A stretch of DNA of 24,141 nt from a virus, in IMG/VR virus record IMGVR_UViG_3300044800_000220, positions 1 to 24,141 of that record. One strand, 5' to 3'. Positions 5,098 through 18,420 of this stretch are shown in pieces (positions within the stretch are counted from its first letter, which is position 1; every line of letters begins with the position of its first letter). A program made the translations under genes and the position numbers. The notes below the pieces were generated by a model. The model searched no databases, was not told where the DNA came from, and saw nothing but the letters and a program-made list of their open reading frames with translations.

Positions 5098-6170
5098 GCC
5101 ACCAACCCCGGAGGCCCTAATTTCAATCTCGTTATAGGTCCCTCGTTTTTCGATAATTCAAAAGTCCGTCCATAAATAAGATAGACCTTGTCGATCTTCT
5201 GCACCTCATCCTTAACCTGGCAGAGTTCATTGATCGTCCAGTTTTTCCCGTTCTGGCTGTACCTGGCGACTTTGTATTCCAATTTCATGCCTTCCCGCCG
5301 ATGCTTTTCCATCCGCATCCGGGCATGTTCTTGAGGACTCCATTGATCATTGTTATCGTGGCCGACGAATGGCTTGTAAAAGGGGAAATCGGGATCCGTA
5401 ACGCTGGCCTTGGTATTAATCTTCGACGCACCGCCGAATATCCCTTGCACATCCTGCCCCTGTTGCTGGCCCATTATCGTGTACTTGGAATAGCGTTTAG
5501 AGATATCGTCGATTTTCTCGGATTCGATGACATTATTCCCGATGCCATCCCGTGAGAGGTGCAATGTATACGCAGGTTCCCCCATCGCCTTTGGCCTCCC
5601 GAATACAAATGTTCCGTCGGGCAAGGAATAAAAAAGCATTCCCCTACTCTGGGCATAAGGCTTTAGTACCTCGAAGATCGTCATGCCCGGCTCGATCTGC
5701 GAGATCCTCTGCGGGGCCTCGAGGAGTCCGATATAGCCACCCTTGGCGGCAACTTTGCTTTTCTTCTTCAGTTTACCTGCAACATTTTCCTGATATACGA
5801 CATTAATGCGATTCAGATGATATATCCGTGAAAGCAGCAGCTCCGCGAGGTCTTTCAATTTTTTCCCGGCGACGCTGATAAAGTCTTCACAGTAAGAGTC
5901 CACCGCGATACCCATCAGGTCCCGGCCCGCGACGGCCAGAGCCACGCCGTTTTTATCGGCCTTACGATTTACCTTATCGACGATTCCTGTCAGTTCGAGG
6001 GCGTCGTTAACATAGAGTTTGCAATCCATGCCTGCCGTAATATCAGTCTCCGGATTGGAAAGCTGGAATTGAAAAGCGGCGGCGGGAGTATAAATGTCCG
6101 CGTCGACCTGATAGCTCAGAAAATGCTGGATGCGGACATTACCGATCTGCAACTCGATCTTATCGGGCAT
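5094..6170 (-). CDS. Baseplate hub protein, Mu gp44 (gpP)-like
   Basis: A 358-residue hub protein of the gpP/gp44 (P2 gpD-like) family, which forms the baseplate centre that carries the spike. The N-terminal beta domain has NPETDITAGMDCKLYVND and ELTGIVDKVN, the family's pattern of a strand pair with G-D-x-x. A later segment reads PGMTIFEVLKPYAQSRGMLFY followed by G-T-F-V-F-G-R-P. I chose the ATG at 6170 (start MPDKIELQI) because GGGGAGG lies nine bases upstream; an ATG 18 bases further up has no site. It overlaps the end of the gpN-like gene by 11 bases. Location between gpN-like and gp45-like genes is that of Mu. Confidence 0.92.
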   Translation of the reverse strand: MPDKIELQIGNVRIQHFLSYQVDADIYTPAAAFQFQLSNPETDITAGMDCKLYVNDALELTGIVDKVNRKADKNGVALAVAGRDLMGIAVDSYCEDFISVAGKKLKDLAELLLSRIYHLNRINVVYQENVAGKLKKKSKVAAKGGYIGLLEAPQRISQIEPGMTIFEVLKPYAQSRGMLFYSLPDGTFVFGRPKAMGEPAYTLHLSRDGIGNNVIESEKIDDISKRYSKYTIMGQQQGQDVQGIFGGASKINTKASVTDPDFPFYKPFVGHDNNDQWSPQEHARMRMEKHRREGMKLEYKVARYSQNGKNWTINELCQVKDEVQKIDKVYLIYGRTFELSKNEGPITRLKLGPPGLVA

Positions 6171-7476
6171 AGACAAATACCTCCCCATCCGTGAAGTTGG
6201 GGTTCCGGATCCGGTTCACTTTCAGCAGTCGCTCCGCATCTGTATAGGACAGGCCGTATTTAAGACAGACGATATGCAGCGGCATGGGGTTATCCAGGGT
6301 GACTTGCATCATTTTTTCGCGTTCGAGACGGATTTTATTCACGTGGATCAGGAGCGCCTCCGCCATCGTTTTCAAGGATGAAACAAGATCATCGCTCCCT
6401 TCGCCGGCGCGTGCGTTTTCGACGGCCGTCTCAATAACATCGCGGACCGACGCCAGGGTTTGCTCGAATTCTCCGATAGTCAGGATCTGAAAGTCCGGGT
6501 CGCCCTCCTTAAAGGCAGTCTCTTCCGCATCGTAGATACCCGCTGCTTCTAACGCCAGTCGCTGGGCGCACGCAATCTGGAGATGGGTGGTCATCAGATC
6601 CGCCGGTGCCGGCGCGGGAGAGGACGGATCCTTCTTCCCGAAATCCTGGAATGCGCTGGAGAGGCCGTCAAATGCATTCCGCAGATTGCCGAGGAACAGC
6701 GCAGGATAATTGTCGATAGTCTGATAAAGCAGCGCCGTCTTTTCCACCGCACCGGCAATGGAGCCGAGGATCCGGCCGGGGAGGGTGAGGCTGTATTGGA
6801 TTGTCGCCTGGAGTGAATTGATGGGACTCGTTATCTGGCTAACGGTCGCCTCGGCAGTGGATATATATCCTTCCACTGTGCCGACGAATGACCTGGTCTT
6901 TGCGGTATATTCCTGCACCTGGGCAAGGAGTCCCTGCCCGGCGTCCAGTATTTTGGTTACCGCGCCGGCATCACAAGCAGCGAGAGCCTTTTTGAGGTCG
7001 GCGCCGAGTTTGTTTTCCTGCGCCGACTGCCCCGCGATATAGGCCTCTTCGAGAGAGGATTTTACCGGCGGCAGATCGAGCGTTTCAATGACGCCGCGCA
7101 TCTGCTCCACAAACGAGATATCCAGCTCGGCGCAACGCGCCTCGTCGTCATGGTGGACGGAGATGGATTCTATTTTTCCCTGCATGAGGCCGTATTTCGG
7201 GTGGTCGAAGGGTACCAGGCCTTTATCCGTCAGATTGTTCAGGAGCAAAATATGATCGTCATAGCCGCTGGAGTTTTTATCGACGTCGTCATAGAAATAG
7301 GCGCGGATTTTGATAGTATGCGCTTTTTCCCCCATGTCCTCAAGATCGGCTCCATCGGCATATGGATAGTCGTATTTGGCGATGGCCTTTTCAAAGGTAT
7401 CGTCGATGGTTTCCATCTCGATGGGGAGATCGTCCAGAGTGCCTTTGTCAAAAGTTTGCTTAACCGTGATTGCCAT
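6160..7476 (-). CDS. DNA circularisation/tail protein, Mu gpN-like
   Basis: A 438-residue protein with the N-terminal domain named for DNA circularisation (Mu gpN, gp43). In contractile tails it is a structural baseplate component between the tape measure end and the hub, and the 'circularisation' name is historical. The domain covers about residues 1-130 and includes D-L-P-I-E-M-E-T near 16-23, G-x-K-A-H-T-I-K-I-R-A-Y, and DKGLVPFDHPKYGLMQGKIES split across 84-105. A long helical middle follows. The last 40 residues resemble a LysM-type repeat (HIVCLKYGLSYTDAERLLKVN), common at the end of this family. The ATG at 7476 shares one base with the tape measure stop (TGATG). Confidence 0.93.
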   Translation of the reverse strand: MAITVKQTFDKGTLDDLPIEMETIDDTFEKAIAKYDYPYADGADLEDMGEKAHTIKIRAYFYDDVDKNSSGYDDHILLLNNLTDKGLVPFDHPKYGLMQGKIESISVHHDDEARCAELDISFVEQMRGVIETLDLPPVKSSLEEAYIAGQSAQENKLGADLKKALAACDAGAVTKILDAGQGLLAQVQEYTAKTRSFVGTVEGYISTAEATVSQITSPINSLQATIQYSLTLPGRILGSIAGAVEKTALLYQTIDNYPALFLGNLRNAFDGLSSAFQDFGKKDPSSPAPAPADLMTTHLQIACAQRLALEAAGIYDAEETAFKEGDPDFQILTIGEFEQTLASVRDVIETAVENARAGEGSDDLVSSLKTMAEALLIHVNKIRLEREKMMQVTLDNPMPLHIVCLKYGLSYTDAERLLKVNRIRNPNFTDGEVFVYAR

Positions 7477-9642: not shown

Positions 9643-9999
9643 TTACTTCCGGGTTTTCGCCGAGAATTTTATGGTCCGGGAAGATTCTTTATCGCCGTCA
9701 TGTTTCAGTGCGCCGATCTCGAGCACGTAGACGCCGCTGTAATTGATGCGCGTGCCGTTCTGGTAGTCGATGACGATCTTGCCGCCCTTGACCGCGGTAA
9801 AATCAAATTCTGGGGTATCCATCGGGACGATATACTCTACATTTACGCCGTACCGTTCCTTGGTTTTCATATGCCCGGTTGTATTCATGAGGTTCACCGC
9901 CTTGTAAACCTCAAATTCTTTTTCTTCCACCGTTTTGAAATCGGTGATGGACTGCCCGTCCACTTCCAGGAGCACCTGGGATACAAATTCTTCCGCCAT
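9643..9999 (-). CDS. Tail tube protein, Mu gpM-like
   Basis: A 118-residue major tail tube protein, hexamers of which stack to make the inner channel under the sheath. It starts with a short acidic segment leading to VLLEVDGQSITDFKTVEEKE, then VNLMNTTGHMKTKERYG, and ends with strand pairs such as GVYVLEIGALKHDG. This is the usual pattern and length of Mu gpM-type tubes. ATG at 9999 follows TTTAAGGAGG, one of the strongest ribosome-binding sites in the window, fitting a highly made protein. The junction with the sheath gene is 55 bases, long for this cluster, and holds the hairpin at 10022-10045. Confidence 0.92.
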   Translation of the reverse strand: MAEEFVSQVLLEVDGQSITDFKTVEEKEFEVYKAVNLMNTTGHMKTKERYGVNVEYIVPMDTPEFDFTAVKGGKIVIDYQNGTRINYSGVYVLEIGALKHDGDKESSRTIKFSAKTRK

Positions 10000-10021
10000 G
10001 AGAGCCTCCTTAAATCCCCTA

Positions 10022-10045
10022 GTCCCCCTTTATGAAAAGGGGGAC
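10022..10045. repeat. Perfect 10-bp inverted repeat between sheath and tube genes
   Basis: GTCCCCCTTT at 10022-10031 pairs with AAAGGGGGAC at 10036-10045 across a 4-base loop (ATGA). It sits in the 55-base gap between the sheath stop and tube start. No T-run follows on the minus strand, so it is not a normal terminator. It could protect or process the tube mRNA. Its layout (pyrimidine-rich arm, purine-rich arm, then AGGGAT-AAAT) resembles the palindrome at 13473-13490, and both look like short palindromic intergenic repeats found in many bacterial genomes. Confidence 0.7.
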
Positions 10046-10054
10046 AGGGATAAA

Positions 10055-11479
10055 TTATAGTATCAGATCGATGCGGCCGGCGAACACGTGGAGCCCATTC
10101 ACCACATCCGTGGGGATTTTCGCATCGAGCCGGTTCGGATCCTGCAGATCCCTTTCACAGATTACGCCGTTGGCATTGTCCGCCACATTCTCGACGATTT
10201 CCAATTGCTCCAACTGCTCCAGAACGTCCATGATCTGATCGCGGACGGCGGCCGGCGTTCTGCTGGAGAGTTTTTCGCGCGGGAATCTCAGCGCGATGCG
10301 GGTCCGGATGGCTGCCCGCACATAATCGAGGGTGCGGATCGTGGTGATATCCAAAAGTGATATATCGAGAATACTCTGCGGGTCTTTAATATATGTGCTG
10401 ACGGCGCGGACGATTTGAACCACTTCACCGGGACCCACTTCCAGCGGCGTTGTTCCGTTGTAGAGGCAGTTTTCCTGCTCTGTCCGGGACAATCGATTCG
10501 CTATAGCAGGAGCGGCGATATTGACCAGTGCGAGAGTATTTAATGGGCGGGCCGGGTCTTCCTCAAAGGCCATCACTGCCGCCATTGCGGCGCCGATTTC
10601 ATAGGCCGGACTGTAGGTGCCGCGCAAATAGGCGCAAACGATGCGGCCGGAATTGACGGTACTGGCCAGCGTGGTGACCGTTGCCAGGACGTCGTCATCG
10701 GCGACTACTCCGATTCCAGGGCGCTCCTCCTGCGGTCCGGAGACATTGTCCAGGTGCGTTTTGAGCGACGTAAGCGATGTCGCATCAATAAACGGGCTGG
10801 CGATGATGTTATATTGTTCTGCGAAGACGGCGGCCAGAGCCGTGGCGAGCACCGGGTCAACCGAACCGGGTGTGGTTGCCGTTAAAGTTCCCGTGACGCC
10901 GGTTGCCGTGATATTGGCGGTAAAATCAATCTGGTTAGCCACGGTGCCCTTGTTTTTGGCGGTGAAGACCAGTGTGCCGGTGGTATGAACATAGGTAAAG
11001 GGCAGCGCTGGATCACCGTCCAGCGCCGATTTCAGGGCGGCGCCGATAATGGTGGCTGAATCCGCAGAATTGATGCCGATCTGATAACAGACGTTTCCGA
11101 CATATAGCGTTAAAACGCCGCTGGAAGTGGCGGGGCCGACAAGCGCCAGAGTATGCACGCGGGCAACCGGAGCTGTTGCGGAATCGTCCAGGGCGCAGAC
11201 GGTCAAGTCCAGATAGGCATTGGCTTTGATCGCCGCCCTGACCATCAGGTGAGCGATGGAGCCGTTCCCGAAGTATGCGGCCGCATCGCTGTCGGAAAAG
11301 ACTAGGGTCGGAATGAGTTGTGCGACGGTACCTGCTGCCAGTCTTTGCGCGATAATCAGCATGCGCTGCAGGTTGGCTGGAAGTGTCCGCACCGCCAGTT
11401 TGGTGTTGAATTCAAAATATTTTCCAGGCTTCCTGATGGAACTGGGAATCTGGTCGAAAGAAATGTTTGGTGAGGCCAT
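10055..11479 (-). CDS. Tail sheath protein, Mu gpL-like
   Basis: A 474-residue contractile sheath protein, which surrounds the tube and drives injection by shortening. It opens with SFDQIPSSIRKPGKYFEFN near residues 7-25, the gpL-type start. It then has LQRMLIIAQR and DAAAYFGNGSIAHLM. The central part contains a Ser/Thr-rich inserted domain (about 120-215). The C-terminal end has the typical IRTLDYVRAAIRTRI and a final strand reading FAGRIDLIL. The size is similar to Mu gpL. The start ATG at 11479 shares one base with the stop of the DUF2635 gene. A contractile (myovirus) tail follows directly from this gene. Confidence 0.95.
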   Translation of the reverse strand: MASPNISFDQIPSSIRKPGKYFEFNTKLAVRTLPANLQRMLIIAQRLAAGTVAQLIPTLVFSDSDAAAYFGNGSIAHLMVRAAIKANAYLDLTVCALDDSATAPVARVHTLALVGPATSSGVLTLYVGNVCYQIGINSADSATIIGAALKSALDGDPALPFTYVHTTGTLVFTAKNKGTVANQIDFTANITATGVTGTLTATTPGSVDPVLATALAAVFAEQYNIIASPFIDATSLTSLKTHLDNVSGPQEERPGIGVVADDDVLATVTTLASTVNSGRIVCAYLRGTYSPAYEIGAAMAAVMAFEEDPARPLNTLALVNIAAPAIANRLSRTEQENCLYNGTTPLEVGPGEVVQIVRAVSTYIKDPQSILDISLLDITTIRTLDYVRAAIRTRIALRFPREKLSSRTPAAVRDQIMDVLEQLEQLEIVENVADNANGVICERDLQDPNRLDAKIPTDVVNGLHVFAGRIDLIL

Positions 11480-11676
11480 CAGTCCTTCCCTCCTTTTTTG
11501 ATTTTTGTTTCTCCGTTAGCGGTTTGAGCCGCTGTCGCAGCCAAGAGGGATCCCTCGCCGACCAGGCGAATATAGTACGCAGTATCCGGGACATTTTGCG
11601 GCTCGGAATCATTGATATATTCCCTCGGCCTTCCTTCCATCGGGCAACGCGTGCCCGGCGCTGATATTACTTTCAT
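11479..11676 (-). CDS. Small protein of the DUF2635 family (Mu gp38-like)
   Basis: A 65-residue protein directly ahead of the sheath gene, as in Mu. It has the family's order of features: a short beta start (KVISAPGTRCPMEGRP), a V-P-D-T-A-Y-Y-I-R-L-V-G-E-G turn and a small polar tail. The usual pattern 'vP.t.YW.R.l.dG' is clear. Function is not known, but its fixed place beside the sheath gene suggests a role in tail assembly. ATG at 11676 follows AAAGGAGG, a strong site. The C-terminal lysine-rich tail (KIKKGGKD) is poorly conserved in such proteins. Confidence 0.85.
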   Translation of the reverse strand: MKVISAPGTRCPMEGRPREYINDSEPQNVPDTAYYIRLVGEGSLLAATAAQTANGETKIKKGGKD

Positions 11677-11686
11677 ATTTCCTCCT

Positions 11687-12232
11687 TTATTGACCTTGCA
11701 ATGTAACTATATCCTCGGCGTCTGATATGTCATCGCCGGGTTTCAGGTAATAATTAAGATCGACTGTGATCAGATCCGTGATCACATCATCGGACACCGC
11801 TTCCACTACTTCCGGGACATCGAGAGCGATCATCGCGCAATGGCAGAGGACGGGGCCGAACATGCGCGGCTCGATCGAATTTACCTTCGGGAGCGTATGC
11901 AGGCATGCGCCCGTTACTTTTTTGCTCATGAACTGAAGCAGTATGGCGTCCACGATCGCATTGAAAGAAATCTCGGAGGCCTTCGCATCCTGCAGCCCGT
12001 AATATCCTTTCAGCAGATAGGAATGAGTCACCTTGAACTTGCTGCCGATACGTTCTATTTTGGGCACCGCGTTTCTGGTGATCTCCCATCCCATTATCTT
12101 GCCGTCGACTTTAAAAAAAGCGAGAAAGGCGGCATCGTCTTTTGCCCAGCGTTCGTAATTATAGACGGCGCCGGTGCCGGGAACTTCCGAAAGAAGAGAA
12201 TTAATCGATTCCCTTAGCGTGCTGTCGCTCAA
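11687..12232 (-). CDS. Putative tail completion/terminator protein
   Basis: A 181-residue protein between the gp10-like neck protein and DUF2635, the place of Mu gp37 (DUF1834). I do not recognise it confidently by sequence. It has a short N-terminal helix (DSTLRESINSLLSEVPG), a central alpha/beta region with HSYLLKGYYGLQDAKASE, and a helix followed by strands near the C-terminus. That mix is compatible with tail terminator folds. The start is TTG at 12232, overlapping the previous stop as TTGA, with GGGAG eight bases upstream. No in-frame ATG exists nearby. Position, not sequence, is the main support for its role. Confidence 0.6.
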   Translation of the reverse strand: MSDSTLRESINSLLSEVPGTGAVYNYERWAKDDAAFLAFFKVDGKIMGWEITRNAVPKIERIGSKFKVTHSYLLKGYYGLQDAKASEISFNAIVDAILLQFMSKKVTGACLHTLPKVNSIEPRMFGPVLCHCAMIALDVPEVVEAVSDDVITDLITVDLNYYLKPGDDISDAEDIVTLQGQ

Positions 12233-12744
12233 CTGTTCATCTCCCTGGTTATTTTAAGTCCCATATTGTCGAATATCCTCTGCAGGCCGGCCCAGTCGTC
12301 ATTCCATGCTCGTTCAAAAACGTGTGCGCCGGGGAAGCCTTTCTGCCCGATCTTTCGCCTGACCACAAATTCCAGTTTCTTCGCCTGTTCTTCATCGATG
12401 CCCATCTTCAAGACCATCCAACTCAATAGAGTGCCTTCCGGCGGCATCTTCTTCTGGGGAGTGCGGCCTTTATCAATCACGATACCGTAAGGGCTGCCTG
12501 TAAAAACGATTCCCTTTATTGCCGGGCTCCCCTTTCCCTGTACCTCTCCGCCAACACTTGCGAGAAAACCGCCCTTGGCTCCGTGGACTCCGATCTTTTT
12601 GGCATCGATGATATATTTTTTCACCCTCCCCTCGAGGAACAAAACGCTTTCCTGCATGGCGGCGTCCAGGTTCTTCTGTACGATCGCCGCTCCCTGCCGG
12701 AGAGTCTCATCCTTTACGGTTATATAGGCCCTGAAATCTTCCAT
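12229..12744 (-). CDS. HK97 gp10-like neck/morphogenesis protein
   Basis: A 171-residue protein likely to join head and tail. The pattern is that of gp10-like or virion-morphogenesis proteins: an N-terminal helical part (about 10-50), a YGIVIDKGRTPQKKMPP segment (residues about 85-100), the 'y.f.le.Gt..m...' type region, and a C-terminal helix reading GFPGAHVFERAWN followed by a basic end. I prefer the ATG at 12744, which overlaps the previous stop as TAATG and has AAGGA upstream. An ATG 21 bases earlier has no site. The two neighbours are also neck or tail-completion proteins, which supports the assignment. Confidence 0.7.
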   Translation of the reverse strand: MEDFRAYITVKDETLRQGAAIVQKNLDAAMQESVLFLEGRVKKYIIDAKKIGVHGAKGGFLASVGGEVQGKGSPAIKGIVFTGSPYGIVIDKGRTPQKKMPPEGTLLSWMVLKMGIDEEQAKKLEFVVRRKIGQKGFPGAHVFERAWNDDWAGLQRIFDNMGLKITREMNS

Positions 12745-13448
12745 TACCGTTTGTTCCTTGCCCATCGCGGATGCGTTAGTCTCTCGAGGCCTCCTGGATA
12801 TTTCTCACTGAGATCCACAACCGCCGTGGCCGGCGATGCCGTGTCGCCGTCCTTCAGATCCATATGACTCGCATAAAGGCGGCGACATTCCTTTGCCCTG
12901 GCCGCATAATCGCGGGATTTGCTTTTATGGTCCACGCTATCGGCCTGGATGGTACTGTCTGTCGTCTGCGCAAAATAGGTTGAGAGCATATCGCAGAAAA
13001 ACGCCGCCGCCAGTATATGTACCGCTTCGTCATCGGCTGTCGCCACGGTGCATGCGGCATCCGTGCATGTATGGGGTGTCGTATAGCTGACGCGGAAAGA
13101 TTCTCTGGATGATGGTGTCGCATTAAGAAAGCGCATGAACTTTCCGGCCGGCTTTATGTATATCTGCCACGCGTCGCCATCGAGAACGTTCGGGATCGGG
13201 AGCGAGTCATCGACGGGATATTCGATCTGTATGATATCGGAGAACGTCTCCGACCAGGAACCGAGGAGCGAGATCGCGTAGTCGAAGGAGCCGGTACCGG
13301 ATTCGTCTTCGGTGATGACCAGCGGGCGGTGTTTGGAATGTTCGTCCAGCGCCTGAGTGATTGCCTTGATCCTCTCGGGCTCTCCAAGGGGAAAATCGCC
13401 CTGCACCAGAATGCCGACTGCCGCTATGTAGTCCTCCCTCGTGCTCAT
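12744..13448 (-). CDS. Putative head-tail connector protein
   Basis: A 234-residue protein that starts the neck gene group, where Mu has gp36 (DUF1320). It is longer than gp36 and not clearly related to it. Its first part has a helix ending in an ALDEHSKHRPL turn. A beta-rich middle follows (FDYAISLLGSWSE, then IQIEYPVDDS and WQIYIKPAGKFMRF). A long helix then runs from DDEAVHILAAAFFCDMLSTY. The layout fits an adaptor protein. I chose ATG at 13448 (start MSTRED) because GAGGGACGAT precedes it; an ATG four codons upstream is badly spaced. A palindromic repeat lies in the 54-base gap before it. Confidence 0.55.
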   Translation of the reverse strand: MSTREDYIAAVGILVQGDFPLGEPERIKAITQALDEHSKHRPLVITEDESGTGSFDYAISLLGSWSETFSDIIQIEYPVDDSLPIPNVLDGDAWQIYIKPAGKFMRFLNATPSSRESFRVSYTTPHTCTDAACTVATADDEAVHILAAAFFCDMLSTYFAQTTDSTIQADSVDHKSKSRDYAARAKECRRLYASHMDLKDGDTASPATAVVDLSEKYPGGLERLTHPRWARNKR

Positions 13449-13472
13449 ATCGTCCCTCATGCCCTCGCGCTG

Positions 13473-13502: not shown

Positions 13503-13961
13503 TTAATTCTTGAATATTCCGGATATGTCAAAAACGTAACTCGTGACGCCCACCACATAGCTAACGCGCACGTATTTTCCAAAGTTTGCGATTGCCTGCC
13601 GGTATTGCCCGGTCGCCGTGATCTGCCCGATCGTCGTGTGCGTGTACCAGGTCAGATTATCCGGAGACGTCTGGATGGTTACATCGAGGGTCGATGCCCC
13701 ATTCTTCGTGGTGACGTTGACGAATATCTGCCCCTCGGCATAGGCCGAAACTTCAAATGCGGTCGAATAACCAGTCGCGGCCGTATATGTCCCACTGGAG
13801 AGGAAACTGATGATCCTTGTCCTTCGGTCCTCCGCGCTGACAGGTACCGATATGTCAAAATTCTCAATCAGACCTATAGCTACAACCGCACAAATTGCCA
13901 CAAACGCCCCTAAGGCTATCTGCCGCATCCGTTTTGCCAGCCTGTCTTCCCTGTCTCTCAT
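13503..13961 (-). CDS. Membrane-anchored beta-domain protein, unknown function
   Basis: A 152-residue protein I do not recognise. Residues 1-13 are strongly basic (RDREDRLAKRMR), and residues about 16-33 form one hydrophobic segment (ALGAFVAICAVVAIGL). This predicts a single membrane anchor or uncleaved signal with the rest outside the cytoplasm. Residues 45-152 are beta-rich with Ser/Thr/Tyr repeats, including VTIQTSPDNLTWYTH, and resemble small jelly-roll or Ig-like domains found on phage surfaces. ATG at 13961 follows GGAGG. It sits thirty bases after the O-antigen ligase-like gene, so the two are probably made together. A virion role would not need a membrane anchor, which is why it stands out. 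Confidence 0.7.
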   Translation of the reverse strand: MRDREDRLAKRMRQIALGAFVAICAVVAIGLIENFDISVPVSAEDRRTRIISFLSSGTYTAATGYSTAFEVSAYAEGQIFVNVTTKNGASTLDVTIQTSPDNLTWYTHTTIGQITATGQYRQAIANFGKYVRVSYVVGVTSYVFDISGIFKN

Positions 13962-13991: not shown

Positions 13992-15212
13992 TTAAATCGC
14001 CCAGGAACGGCGATCTCCGGTTCCTTGCGTAACCTCGCTCATCAGGGCGCCCTCTCTCTCGAACGTGCCCTGGTTCTGTCGGTTCCTGTGCCACAATCCG
14101 AGCCACGCGCAGCCCAATAATGCCGTCGGCGGGACATGCATGCAGAAAAAGCCGAAACAACTCACAATGAGCGCAGTCATCCCCATCGCTTCAAGAGGAT
14201 GTACCGCCTTCCTGTAAATCACGATAAACACAGTGGCAAGAAAAGCTAGGATGAGCGCCAACGACTGCACGCCCATCTCGAAAGGGGTCTGTATGTATTC
14301 ATTATGAGCCTGGGCGAAGACATCCTGTGCCAATAATACCCCGTTTTCATATGTCACTTTGCCGAGGCGGGGATCACCGGACGCAAGCAAGGGGAAGACC
14401 CACTCCCAGCTCCCCAGTCCTCTGCCGAATGCCTCTGACCGGAGAGACCATGCCGCATGTTTCCATGTGATCCATCTGGAGTTATCCGTCATCAGGTCCA
14501 GGGGTTTCACCTGCCAGAACCAGACGCCGGCAAGAAGCAACACGGCATACATGCCCATGCGGATATTTCGCCTATCCGTTACGGAAAGCCAGATATACAC
14601 CGACATGGCCGCGAGGGCTGCCAGGAAGCCCGTCGTGGACCAGGCCATGTACAACCCGCCGAAGATGAGGGGGACCAACATATATCTCCACTCCCTGCGC
14701 CACGGGGCGAGGGCGAGTAGCCGGTAAGCAAAAACGGATTCAAATCTGAAACTCCATTTGCGGAAACATCCGGGCAGGCAGAGCGCCAGGAAAATTGCGG
14801 CCGTATCCGGGTTGAACAGTCCGCCGGGTACGCCGAAATAAAGATGCGCGATCCCGAGCCTCTGCAGGGACATCCAGTCAAGGATAATCAGGACGGCGAT
14901 GCACATAAAATCCATCGTCTTTTCCCTGTCGATCCGGCTGAATCCCTCTGCACAGGCCAGGAACATGGCGATCATTAGGAGTGAAATATATTCGTCATAT
15001 GCCGGGGGAATGCGTGTTGCCGTACGGAGAAGGGCGAGGAGCAGAAAGAGCCTCCACCACCAGGAAGACAGCATGACTACCACCGCGCCGCATGCAATCC
15101 ATATGGCAACGAGCTGCCAGGACAGGCGGAAGGGCATGCCGCCCGCCGGGATGATGCAGAACATCAGCCCGGGGACGGCTGCAAGTAATATTGTCTGATA
15201 AGCTTTGTTCAC
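13992..15212 (-). CDS. O-antigen ligase/polymerase-like integral membrane protein (Wzy_C type)
   Basis: A 406-residue polytopic membrane protein with about ten to twelve hydrophobic segments. It matches the WaaL/Wzy pattern: FNPDTAAIFLALCLP at 133-147, SRWITWKHAAW at 245-255, then GRGLGSWEW at 263-271, and after a periplasmic loop AQDVFAQAHNEYIQTPFEMG ending at 314, with His303 in the conserved HNE. Family members join or polymerise undecaprenyl-linked sugar chains on the periplasmic face. The length is normal (about 400). The start is GTG at 15212, three bases after the preceding stop and with only a weak GAGG site, so coupling is likely. No other glycan gene is nearby. Its place between capsid and neck genes is unusual. 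Ligase versus polymerase cannot be told from sequence alone. Confidence 0.82.
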   Translation of the reverse strand: MNKAYQTILLAAVPGLMFCIIPAGGMPFRLSWQLVAIWIACGAVVVMLSSWWWRLFLLLALLRTATRIPPAYDEYISLLMIAMFLACAEGFSRIDREKTMDFMCIAVLIILDWMSLQRLGIAHLYFGVPGGLFNPDTAAIFLALCLPGCFRKWSFRFESVFAYRLLALAPWRREWRYMLVPLIFGGLYMAWSTTGFLAALAAMSVYIWLSVTDRRNIRMGMYAVLLLAGVWFWQVKPLDLMTDNSRWITWKHAAWSLRSEAFGRGLGSWEWVFPLLASGDPRLGKVTYENGVLLAQDVFAQAHNEYIQTPFEMGVQSLALILAFLATVFIVIYRKAVHPLEAMGMTALIVSCFGFFCMHVPPTALLGCAWLGLWHRNRQNQGTFEREGALMSEVTQGTGDRRSWAI

Positions 15213-15215
15213 GAA

Positions 15216-15701
15216 TCAGTAACCCGCCTCTGCCGATTTCGGCATTTGAATACGAATATAGTATGTCGTGGACGTCGCAGCGCTTGCCGCACCTGGTAGA
15301 ACCCATCCCACAATCTCTGCATTCGTGGGCGCTGTGGCCGTCAGGCCGCCCGGACTGTTCGCAAGATATATGCGCCCGCCGGGACTTGCCGCGGTCATGC
15401 CGGTGATGACGCCGTCAACTACAATTTCAACAGTTTTTCCGGATACGCCGCCCTTGTCAATGATGCCAACACAGGGGCGTGCTGTAGACTGGTCCGCCAT
15501 TGCCTTATATGCCTTGCCGTCGGAGCCGCTGATATAGACGGGGTCGCCGGTAACAAGAGTCGCTCCGGCGGTCGCCGAAAAACGCACATTCTTCTGTAGC
15601 CAATTAATCGCGGCCTCTGACGGCGCGACGGTCATCAGCAGAAACATCACGCAAATAACTATCATCAGAAATGCTTCTGTTAACTTTTTGAAATACCGCA
15701 T
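15216..15701 (-). CDS. Capsid cement-like protein with a signal peptide
   Basis: A 161-residue protein directly after the capsid gene. Residues 1-30 form a clear signal peptide: basic RYFKK, a 15-residue hydrophobic core (FLMIVICVMFLLMTV) and a likely cleavage after SEA at 28-30. The remaining part is beta-rich and looks like DUF2190-type head decoration proteins (TLVTGDPVYISGSDGKAYKA, PCVGIIDKG, then GGRIYLANSPGGLTA and VGWVLPG). Decoration proteins act in the cytoplasm, so an export signal is unexpected. It may have been adapted to the periplasm or outer surface, or the hydrophobic start may have another role. ATG at 15701 follows GAAGGAGG. A strong hairpin lies upstream at 15730-15752. Confidence 0.75.
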   Translation of the reverse strand: MRYFKKLTEAFLMIVICVMFLLMTVAPSEAAINWLQKNVRFSATAGATLVTGDPVYISGSDGKAYKAMADQSTARPCVGIIDKGGVSGKTVEIVVDGVITGMTAASPGGRIYLANSPGGLTATAPTNAEIVGWVLPGAASAATSTTYYIRIQMPKSAEAGY

Positions 15702-15771: not shown

Positions 15772-18420
15772 TTACGCGACAACCGACTTATCGAAGCCGC
15801 GGTAATCCACTATTTCCCATTCATACTCATGGCGGAGCTTGTACTGGATCTTGTCGCCCATAAACATTTGCCCCACCAGCGGATTATCCGCGACGAAGAG
15901 TTCCGGCTGTTCCTGTCCGTTCAGGAAGGCCACTTCCAGGAGTTCCACGTCACCGGCATCCGCGACGAGCACCCAGTCATTTGTGTCCGCGGTGAGCAAC
16001 ATCGTGATGATGTTTTCATGTTTTTCACCGAAACGGCCGGCATGGGGGTTTCCACCAGCGACTCCCGGCCAGGGTGAATTCAGTCCCTTGGCGACTTCGA
16101 GGTATGCCCGCGGCACGCAGAGGTATTTCGGCTCAAGACCCAGCATCGCGCCCGAATCCTTTTCCGTCTGGCCATACATGGCCACCAGACGATTCGTCAG
16201 CGTCGTGATGCCTGTCGCGTCGTTGGTCAGCGCGACTGAGCCAAGATTTCCGTGGCCAGCCGTGACGACCGCCGTGTTGTCGCCCTTATACGTTGCATTA
16301 TTGACGATCTTAGCCCAACCCCTGTTTGAAAAGGTTCTCTTTGCTGCCCGTCCGATATGGGCCACGGACATCTGCACTGTCCTGAGATCGTCGTTGATGA
16401 TGACTTTTCGGTTTACCGAAAAAATGGCCCCCTTCTGGTTGAGGGAATAACTGACTTCTTCGTCAGTGATCATCGGGATCTCCTGATAGTCCGCGGTCTC
16501 CGGATCGACGTCAGCGATATCTCCGAAGTAGCCGATCCGCACCGACTCGAGTGTCCTGAAGTCACGCGCATTTCTCTTGTATGAGATCAGGATGTCCTCT
16601 CTCCACCTGGGGATATTGTAGTCCTGGATCAGCCGCCTGTACATGGTATTGCCCAGGGCATAGGTGAAGGTGGACGAACTGTACGCCGCAGGCAACTGCA
16701 TATATGCCATGTAAGCCTCACCGAATCGCACACCGTCGCGGTTTGGTATGCCGCGCACGTCAGGATCTCCCGTGATCCTCGCATATGCCGCTCGCAGGGA
16801 TGCGAATGCAACGACGTCTTTAAATTTCTCATCGACGACGACGCCCATCATCTTGTCAAGTGCCGCCTGGACGCGTTCCGGCTCCTCAGTGCCCGGCCGG
16901 ATCTGCCCGGATCCTGATACGGATCCTGACCCGGTGATCTTGTCGACGTATTCTTTTTCGTCTTTGATCGCGGCTTTCAGAGCATCGACTTCGAAGAATT
17001 TACCTTCGAACTGCTTCTTGACCCGCACCTGAGAGAGTTCGGGGAGGCCCGACTCCTTCAATTCGGAATTAAGGGTCATGCCGCAGGCGACGATCTTTGC
17101 GTCGTTAAGGACCTTCTGAACCTCGGCAACATTTCCGCCATCGGCCAGAGCCTTTTTCACGGCCGCCTGGATACGCGCATCGGTGTCCGCCGCCGGCGTC
17201 AAACCTCTCGTGAGAAGCTCCAGGACTTCTTCTTCAGTTACGGTCTTGCTTGTTACTTTTCCCTCGATGGTCGCATAGAGGTCGGGCCTCTGCGCCTTGA
17301 GGGCAGCCAATAATCTTTCAATCATCTGCTCCTCCTTCCGGCCCGCCGTTCTGGCTGCGGCCATTCTTAAAAATTTCCCACCAGCGATGGGATCATAGAC
17401 AACATCTACGGAGTCGACCCTGACGATCTTCTCCACTTCTTTCATGCCGTTCTTGCCTTTGCTATATGCCGCCAGGACGTCATGGGAAAGACCCACAAGA
17501 TCCTTTTTCCCGCGCTCCCAGGCGTCTACCACCATGTCTCTCAGCCACTTGGCGGTTTTGGAAATATTGAATATGCCCTTCACGCCTGTTGCACACGCCT
17601 TGCAGTCTGAAAGCCAACCAGCGAGATCACGGACCGATTTGCCATACGGATTCGCCGGATCATCGTGCTGTCCCTGCGATAGAGCAAATACCCGTGCACC
17701 TTCGTAAATGGGGGCTGCGGCCTGTAACACCGCAAGCGGATAGTTGGCGATGCCCTGTTTGTCTGGCCCCGCCTCCGCGATCTGCACCTCCCATTTATAG
17801 CCGTAATTAGGATCATTCTTGTCGAGTACTGACGCTGTGATTCTTGCCGCCGCCTCAACTTTCACGTACTGCCGTTCGACCTCGACCTTCTCCCCGAGGG
17901 TGACCTGATCGCCGTCTACGGAAATGGTATAGGGAATCTGCCACATGTCGTCACCAGTGTTCGAGTTTTCGACGATGACGTAATCGGGGAATGTTTCACA
18001 GATCCACCATCCATCGGGGAGTCCTGCGTAGATCATATCGCGGATATCATCGAAACTCGGCTGTTTCCCGGCCGCCGCGCCCTTTGTGACGGCTATCCCG
18101 ATCTTAAATTTCTTCTCGAACGTTGCCAGGCGACTGTCTATGACCTTCTGATCCGCTTCGGAGTATTTCGCTTTATCTTCCGCCTTCCCCCAGTAGGGTG
18201 CGGCCGCCCTGGTCTGCGCCTCATCGGGGCATGGATATGCGTAATTGACAGGATCAAGCCACTGTGAATCGGGGACTGATGCCCATTGCGGGGGCTTCGT
18301 CACATTGCCGTCGTCGCGGACGGAGATGCCGTACTTCTTCGATCGCGCCGCCTGTGCATCTTTTTCGGGAGACGTCGCGGCACCGAGAAGTCTCACGATT
18401 TTTTTACGTATTTTTTTCAT
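15772..18420 (-). CDS. Fused prohead protease, scaffold and major capsid protein
   Basis: An 882-residue protein that appears to combine three head functions normally encoded by two or three genes. Residues 60-180 hold a region often linked to prohead proteases (YPCPDEAQTRAAAPYW, then PSFDDIRD and WWICETFPDYVIVEN). Residues 183-360 look like the protease: VRDLAGWL at 263-270, AWERGKKDLVGLSHD near 300-314, VRVDSVDVVYDPIAGGKFLR near 333-352. Candidate catalytic residues are His251, Ser312 and Ser337. Residues 360-510 are a charged helical scaffold ending in a Gly/Ser linker (GSGSVSGSGQ). Residues about 525-882 are a capsid subunit of HK97 type, with AYARITGDPDVRGIPN and VAGGNPHAGRFGE. The mature capsid piece would be about 40 kDa after cleavage near the linker, an inference. 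GAGGAG precedes the ATG. Confidence 0.85.
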   Translation of the reverse strand: MKKIRKKIVRLLGAATSPEKDAQAARSKKYGISVRDDGNVTKPPQWASVPDSQWLDPVNYAYPCPDEAQTRAAAPYWGKAEDKAKYSEADQKVIDSRLATFEKKFKIGIAVTKGAAAGKQPSFDDIRDMIYAGLPDGWWICETFPDYVIVENSNTGDDMWQIPYTISVDGDQVTLGEKVEVERQYVKVEAAARITASVLDKNDPNYGYKWEVQIAEAGPDKQGIANYPLAVLQAAAPIYEGARVFALSQGQHDDPANPYGKSVRDLAGWLSDCKACATGVKGIFNISKTAKWLRDMVVDAWERGKKDLVGLSHDVLAAYSKGKNGMKEVEKIVRVDSVDVVYDPIAGGKFLRMAAARTAGRKEEQMIERLLAALKAQRPDLYATIEGKVTSKTVTEEEVLELLTRGLTPAADTDARIQAAVKKALADGGNVAEVQKVLNDAKIVACGMTLNSELKESGLPELSQVRVKKQFEGKFFEVDALKAAIKDEKEYVDKITGSGSVSGSGQIRPGTEEPERVQAALDKMMGVVVDEKFKDVVAFASLRAAYARITGDPDVRGIPNRDGVRFGEAYMAYMQLPAAYSSSTFTYALGNTMYRRLIQDYNIPRWREDILISYKRNARDFRTLESVRIGYFGDIADVDPETADYQEIPMITDEEVSYSLNQKGAIFSVNRKVIINDDLRTVQMSVAHIGRAAKRTFSNRGWAKIVNNATYKGDNTAVVTAGHGNLGSVALTNDATGITTLTNRLVAMYGQTEKDSGAMLGLEPKYLCVPRAYLEVAKGLNSPWPGVAGGNPHAGRFGEKHENIITMLLTADTNDWVLVADAGDVELLEVAFLNGQEQPELFVADNPLVGQMFMGDKIQYKLRHEYEWEIVDYRGFDKSVVA

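Follow-up and report, generated by a model that had tools for sequence, protein, structure and literature searches.

Why should a tailed phage carry a gene for an O-antigen ligase-like membrane protein among the genes that build its head? The gene, here called wzy (positions 13992 to 15212, minus strand; GTG start, 406 amino acids), lies in a 24 kb virus record. This record, the whole stretch of 24,141 nucleotides analyzed, is referred to below as the window. It holds late genes on one strand, in the order terminase, portal, head morphogenesis, capsid-protease fusion, cement, Wzy, DUF6385-like, neck, sheath and tail. Wzy is flanked on one side by the genes for the 161-residue cement protein (15216 to 15701, minus strand) and the 882-residue major capsid protein of the protease-fusion type (15772 to 18420, minus strand; PF25209, E 1.7e-28; phrog_4523, major head and protease protein). 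On its other side lie a gene for a second exported-looking protein of 152 residues, DUF6385/head-fibre-like (13503 to 13961, minus strand; DUF6385, E 7.2e-6; phrog_9522, tail, E 6.4e-6), and a conserved neck-type gene that closes the block and occupies the same place in relatives (12744 to 13460, minus strand). The first-pass annotation had remarked on this odd location between capsid and neck genes, and comparison with related phages bears it out: relatives at 67-81% identity keep Wzy in the head operon, between the cement and DUF6385-like genes. Three bases separate the cement stop codon from the Wzy GTG in the window, and a few bases do so in several relatives. The DUF6385-like gene is absent from L015, L018, L034, L036 and L045, where Wzy lies between cement and neck, making cement the constant partner. 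The maintenance of this position, together with pairwise dN/dS values of 0.17-0.24 that denote purifying selection on Wzy, indicates that the gene is neither a chance occurrence nor a one-off misassembly.

The phage is probably of the Mu type, an assignment supported by the finding of a Mu-type transposase C domain (Mu-transpos_C) in nine of the 11 larger contigs of the same family, the window itself comprising late genes only. Near the late-gene end, the window encodes a D12-class adenine DNA methyltransferase (PF02086; 246 to 1052, minus strand). The contractile-tail sheath gene lies at 10055 to 11479; by visual inspection, L002 and L005, which share the head block, have no sheath-like gene at the corresponding place, as though one Wzy-bearing head block had been joined to more than one kind of tail module. 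Beside the head morphogenesis gene of L005, inspection by eye also revealed an ADP-ribosyltransferase-like frame (903 to 1373) and an ADP-ribosylglycohydrolase-like frame (1538 to 2320). In the structural operon of a Wzy-positive relative, L101, a 593-residue glycosyltransferase with GT2 and GT4 domains (5603 to 7381, minus strand; PF00535, E 9.4e-27) is encoded between neck and tail genes.

Wzy had been described at first pass as a Wzy_C/WaaL-type protein with an HNE motif at His303, a glycine-rich GSW stretch and about ten membrane segments, and this description held. A profile search matched the protein to Pfam Wzy_C (PF04932) with 32.5 bits, above the curated cut-off of 31.7 (E 8.5e-8); the same family was matched by all 20 aligned family members and by nine of nine diverse ones (E ≤ 0.01). 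Both the HNE motif and an FGRGLGSW stretch are present, and about ten hydrophobic peaks can be discerned, two of them overlapping. The AF2 model, built from an alignment of 20 relatives (pLDDT 79), had the O-antigen ligase WaaL as its clear best PDB match (7tpg_B; Foldseek E 7.9e-4; Z 16.3 over 309 residues); next in rank came FtsW and RodA, both SEDS proteins. Like WaaL, Wzy has a catalytic-type His; unlike WaaL, with which it shares 13% identity, it does not lie in an LPS locus. The putative catalytic residue, His303 (codon at 14304 to 14306, minus strand, within QAHNEYIQ), is equivalent by motif to H349 of PglL and H338 of WaaL (PMC3643930). It is kept in all 20 relatives of alignment A4 except L016, which has Asp. 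Both R246 and H303 are at least 90% conserved in A4 and invariant in alignment A6 of diverse members, among which R246, H303, N304 and the GxG motif form a near-invariant set. The A6 sequence profile found no match in the PDB; PHROGs holds no family for the window Wzy or the A6 members, and NCBIfam none for the window protein. Tblastn searches of 50,697 records of named phages yielded no match to the window Wzy (E ≤ 10) or to the Wzy proteins of L092, L085 and L090 (E ≤ 1e-3), and a single scan of genome contigs returned only bacterial O-antigen-ligase-like genes and pointed to no prophage or host.

What the first-pass annotation had missed are the neighbors of Wzy, namely an exported cement protein encoded upstream and an exported-looking protein downstream. 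The cement protein scores just below the cut-off for Phage_cement_2 (PF09956; E 1.8e-4, 22.3 bits, cut-off 24), and nine of 22 relatives match this family at E ≤ 0.01. In its model (pLDDT 88), residues 35-159 adopt the phage decoration fold, with structural matches to Adjutor (8saj, Z 11.6), HFTV1 (8qsy, Z 11.3) and Pam3 (Z 8.8). Outside this fold, residues 2-33 are modelled as a single continuous helix corresponding to a predicted Sec-type signal peptide (MRYFKKLTEAFLMIVICVMFLLMTVAPSEA, followed by A at the predicted cleavage point; 15612 to 15701, minus strand), of a type conserved across the family. Signal peptides were called throughout by a home-made n/h/c-region test rather than by SignalP. 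The DUF6385-like protein likewise has an N-terminal signal, extending to about residue 43 (alignment A3). Export signals on both proteins recur across some 45 contigs, with AxA-type cleavage sites in nearly all family members; the notion that such signals are limited to Wzy-bearing phages was rejected, as Wzy-negative relatives have them too. The mature partner resembles Phage_cement_2 and the HFTV1, Adjutor, Pam3 and T1 decoration proteins in fold and in the place of its gene after the capsid gene, but differs from known cement and decoration proteins by its Sec-type signal peptide. Such a leader is likewise absent from the neck fibre of Anabaena phage A-1(L), a related protein. A literature search in a collection with few subscription journals found no report of a phage-encoded oligosaccharyltransferase or of signal peptides on head decoration proteins.

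The same gene pair is found in unrelated phages. Two scans that used the ligase motif QAHNEY as their anchor and took no account of the neighbors located Wzy_C genes within head modules in further lineages (L024/L092/L093/L082, L081, L083, L085, L090/L097, L006/L078, L007 and others). Between several of these groups BLAST detected no similarity of the capsid genes, some of the capsid assignments in this comparison being made by position. Of 31 distinct contigs, 30 have a signal peptide on the protein encoded directly upstream of Wzy, whereas only 24 of the 175 other genes examined in these contigs encode one (Fisher p 3.5e-20); in the 31st contig, L112, a signal peptide was recognized by eye (MKLVLTAILFMVCFSANA). 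One small gene intervenes between partner and Wzy in L007, whose Wzy (9998 to 11106) is split over several frames, with breaks near 10600 and 10990, and is either a pseudogene or an assembly error. The hits in L079 and L080 were discarded as chance DNA-pattern matches in a non-Wzy frame. In L006, a capsid-like protein encoded right after Wzy (10632 to 11768) has at its N-terminus a signal peptide plus another hydrophobic stretch; other virion-like genes of this contig, at 11779 and 15938, also start with signal peptides.

Ligase and partner covary across these lineages. The similarity of Wzy between contigs tracks that of the partner (Spearman 0.58) more closely than that of the head genes (0.31), some head scores being zero because contigs are short; among pairs with no detected head similarity the Wzy-partner correlation is 0.45, a value reached in none of 2000 Mantel permutations. 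Individual cases illustrate the point. L024 has its capsid gene in common with L092, yet L085 is its closest counterpart in both Wzy and exported protein, and L083 is that of L092.

On the outer side of the inner membrane, Wzy_C enzymes transfer lipid-linked glycan to different acceptors: the LPS core in the case of WaaL, a glycan under construction in that of Wzy, and protein in that of PglL and TfpO. The pairing with an exported decoration protein makes that protein the candidate acceptor, and suggests that these phages have their own coat proteins decorated with host sugar chains, either instead of changing the host surface or in addition to it. In the reading that we favor, and to which we give an even chance of being correct, the phage ligase would take lipid-linked glycan of the host and attach it to an exported decoration protein of the virion, in the way that PglL and TfpO modify pilins. 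A WaaL/PglL-type glycan ligase would be produced along with the other late proteins that build the particle; the cement protein, whose gene immediately precedes that of the ligase, would be exported through Sec; and in the periplasm the ligase would transfer host undecaprenyl-diphosphate-linked glycan to the cement, possibly to its Ser/Thr/Tyr-containing C-terminal tail. The glycosylated protein would then join the capsid, perhaps, we would guess, when the membrane fails at lysis. The sugar donor would have to come from the host, given that a PF00535 glycosyltransferase is absent from 29 of 30 records; the idea that the phages supply their own glycosyltransferases was rejected, L101 alone having one.

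A role for the tail is suggested by comparison within the Mu-type family. The window cement ends in a candidate recognition or attachment tail (KSAEAGY; 15219 to 15242, minus strand), and a short cement with a GAGY-like end is found in all 18 Wzy-positive Mu-type phages tested and in one of 12 Wzy-negative ones. Aligned, the GAGY-like tails have Ser in 15 of 17 cases and Tyr in 16 of 17. The remaining 11 Wzy-negative phages have a longer cement (frames of 226-609 residues) with no GAGY-like tail; in the Wzy-negative relatives L057, L055, L039 and L041 (frames of 306-609 residues) the cement contains extra repeated domains, as if an added domain replaced the ligase. The best neck-gene tree, constructed without the truncated contigs L060-L062, L065 and L067, whose Wzy state is unknown, implies nine changes of Wzy state, three of them forced by well supported branches. 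A phylogeny-aware paired sign test had only three supported pairs to draw on and was not significant (p 0.25).

Several observations count against glycosylation of the cement. On the usual view, tailed phages synthesize and assemble their capsid proteins in the cytoplasm, whereas the cement is predicted to be exported. Export is not explained by glycosylation alone, since Wzy-negative relatives have the signals too. L053 has both cement types, the tailed one included, but no Wzy, and L016 has Asp in place of His303. The partners in other lineages have no common C-terminal tail, and none of the 29 Wzy proteins scanned matches the PglL_A motif (PF15864); hence Wzy is not classed as a PglL, only as possibly working like one.

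One alternative, which takes up the idea put forward at first pass, is that an O-antigen polymerase or ligase alters host LPS or capsule, during lytic growth or lysogeny, and so excludes other phages or keeps progeny off debris. Membership in the same Pfam family speaks for it, as do known phage Wzy_C enzymes with such a role: the Wzy of phage D3 modifies LPS (PMC4815439) and those of Acinetobacter prophages modify LPS or capsule (PMC13228068). The first-pass annotation was right about gene identity and odd position, while its LPS role found no positive evidence here. The fixed place of Wzy in the head operon, three bases after cement, and its recurrent pairing with an exported virion-type protein, with which it covaries in unrelated phages, fit an enzyme acting on its partner better than one acting on LPS. 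Within the window, moreover, no inhibitor, acetylase or glycosyltransferase partners were seen. We regard this alternative as unlikely. The known phage-encoded Wzy_C-type proteins (D3, epsilon15 Wzy-beta, Acinetobacter wzyPh, VarioGold p25) also differ in setting. Their genes are reported to lie in units devoted to conversion or in morons, to neighbor genes for lysis or depolymerases, or to belong to a serotype-conversion locus, whereas Wzy of the window and its relatives is inside the head operon, paired with an exported decoration protein; it does not stand alone as a moron, as D3 wzy-beta and the Acinetobacter prophage wzy genes do. In VarioGold, the O-antigen ligase gene adjoins one for a signal-peptide protein, outside the structural genes (PMC9658991).

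A further possibility is that the exported proteins and the ligase act jointly on the cell envelope, in superinfection exclusion or receptor masking, and not on the virion. The signal peptides on both neighbors of Wzy would be in keeping with this, as would the multiple membrane segments of the ligase and the late co-expression that the operon implies; it appears improbable in view of the capsid decoration fold of the partner (Z up to 11.6), encoded directly after the capsid gene. Finally, the hydrophobic N-termini might stay uncleaved and, as anchors, direct the assembly of capsids to the inner membrane, with the Wzy-like protein as a docking platform or dead enzyme, a proposal in line with the loss of the His in L016 and with the unbroken helix modelled for cement residues 2-33, but rendered very improbable by the nearly universal AxA-type sites, the near-invariance of R246, H303, N304 and GxG among diverse members and a dN/dS of about 0.2 for Wzy.

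A close parallel to the proposed glycosylation of the cement by its neighboring ligase is offered by the protein O-oligosaccharyltransferases PglL, TfpO and PglS. These too are Wzy_C membrane enzymes in whose Wzy_C region a His and an Arg are conserved, and their genes adjoin that of an exported substrate-like protein outside the LPS locus; most PglL genes adjoin the gene for their own target protein (PMC3643930). They differ in that the window Wzy is phage-encoded and has no PglL_A match, that glycan transfer here is putative, and that the partner is a phage capsid decoration protein instead of a pilin. Extending the argument, we tentatively suggest, at somewhat less than an even chance, that ligase and partner form a two-gene cassette that is widespread and transferable and resides in head modules of tailed phages unrelated to one another. 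The decoration protein would be exported, would receive host sugars from the phage ligase and would be loaded onto the capsid at lysis; the released particle would thus wear the surface glycan of its host. The pairs described here would serve glycoengineering as a ready set of new enzyme-substrate candidates. If the proposed modification takes place, annotations of such genes as serotype-conversion morons need correcting. Part of the virion would then mature in the periplasm and bear a host-derived sugar, which could affect the sticking of particles to surfaces, their persistence and their escape from capture.
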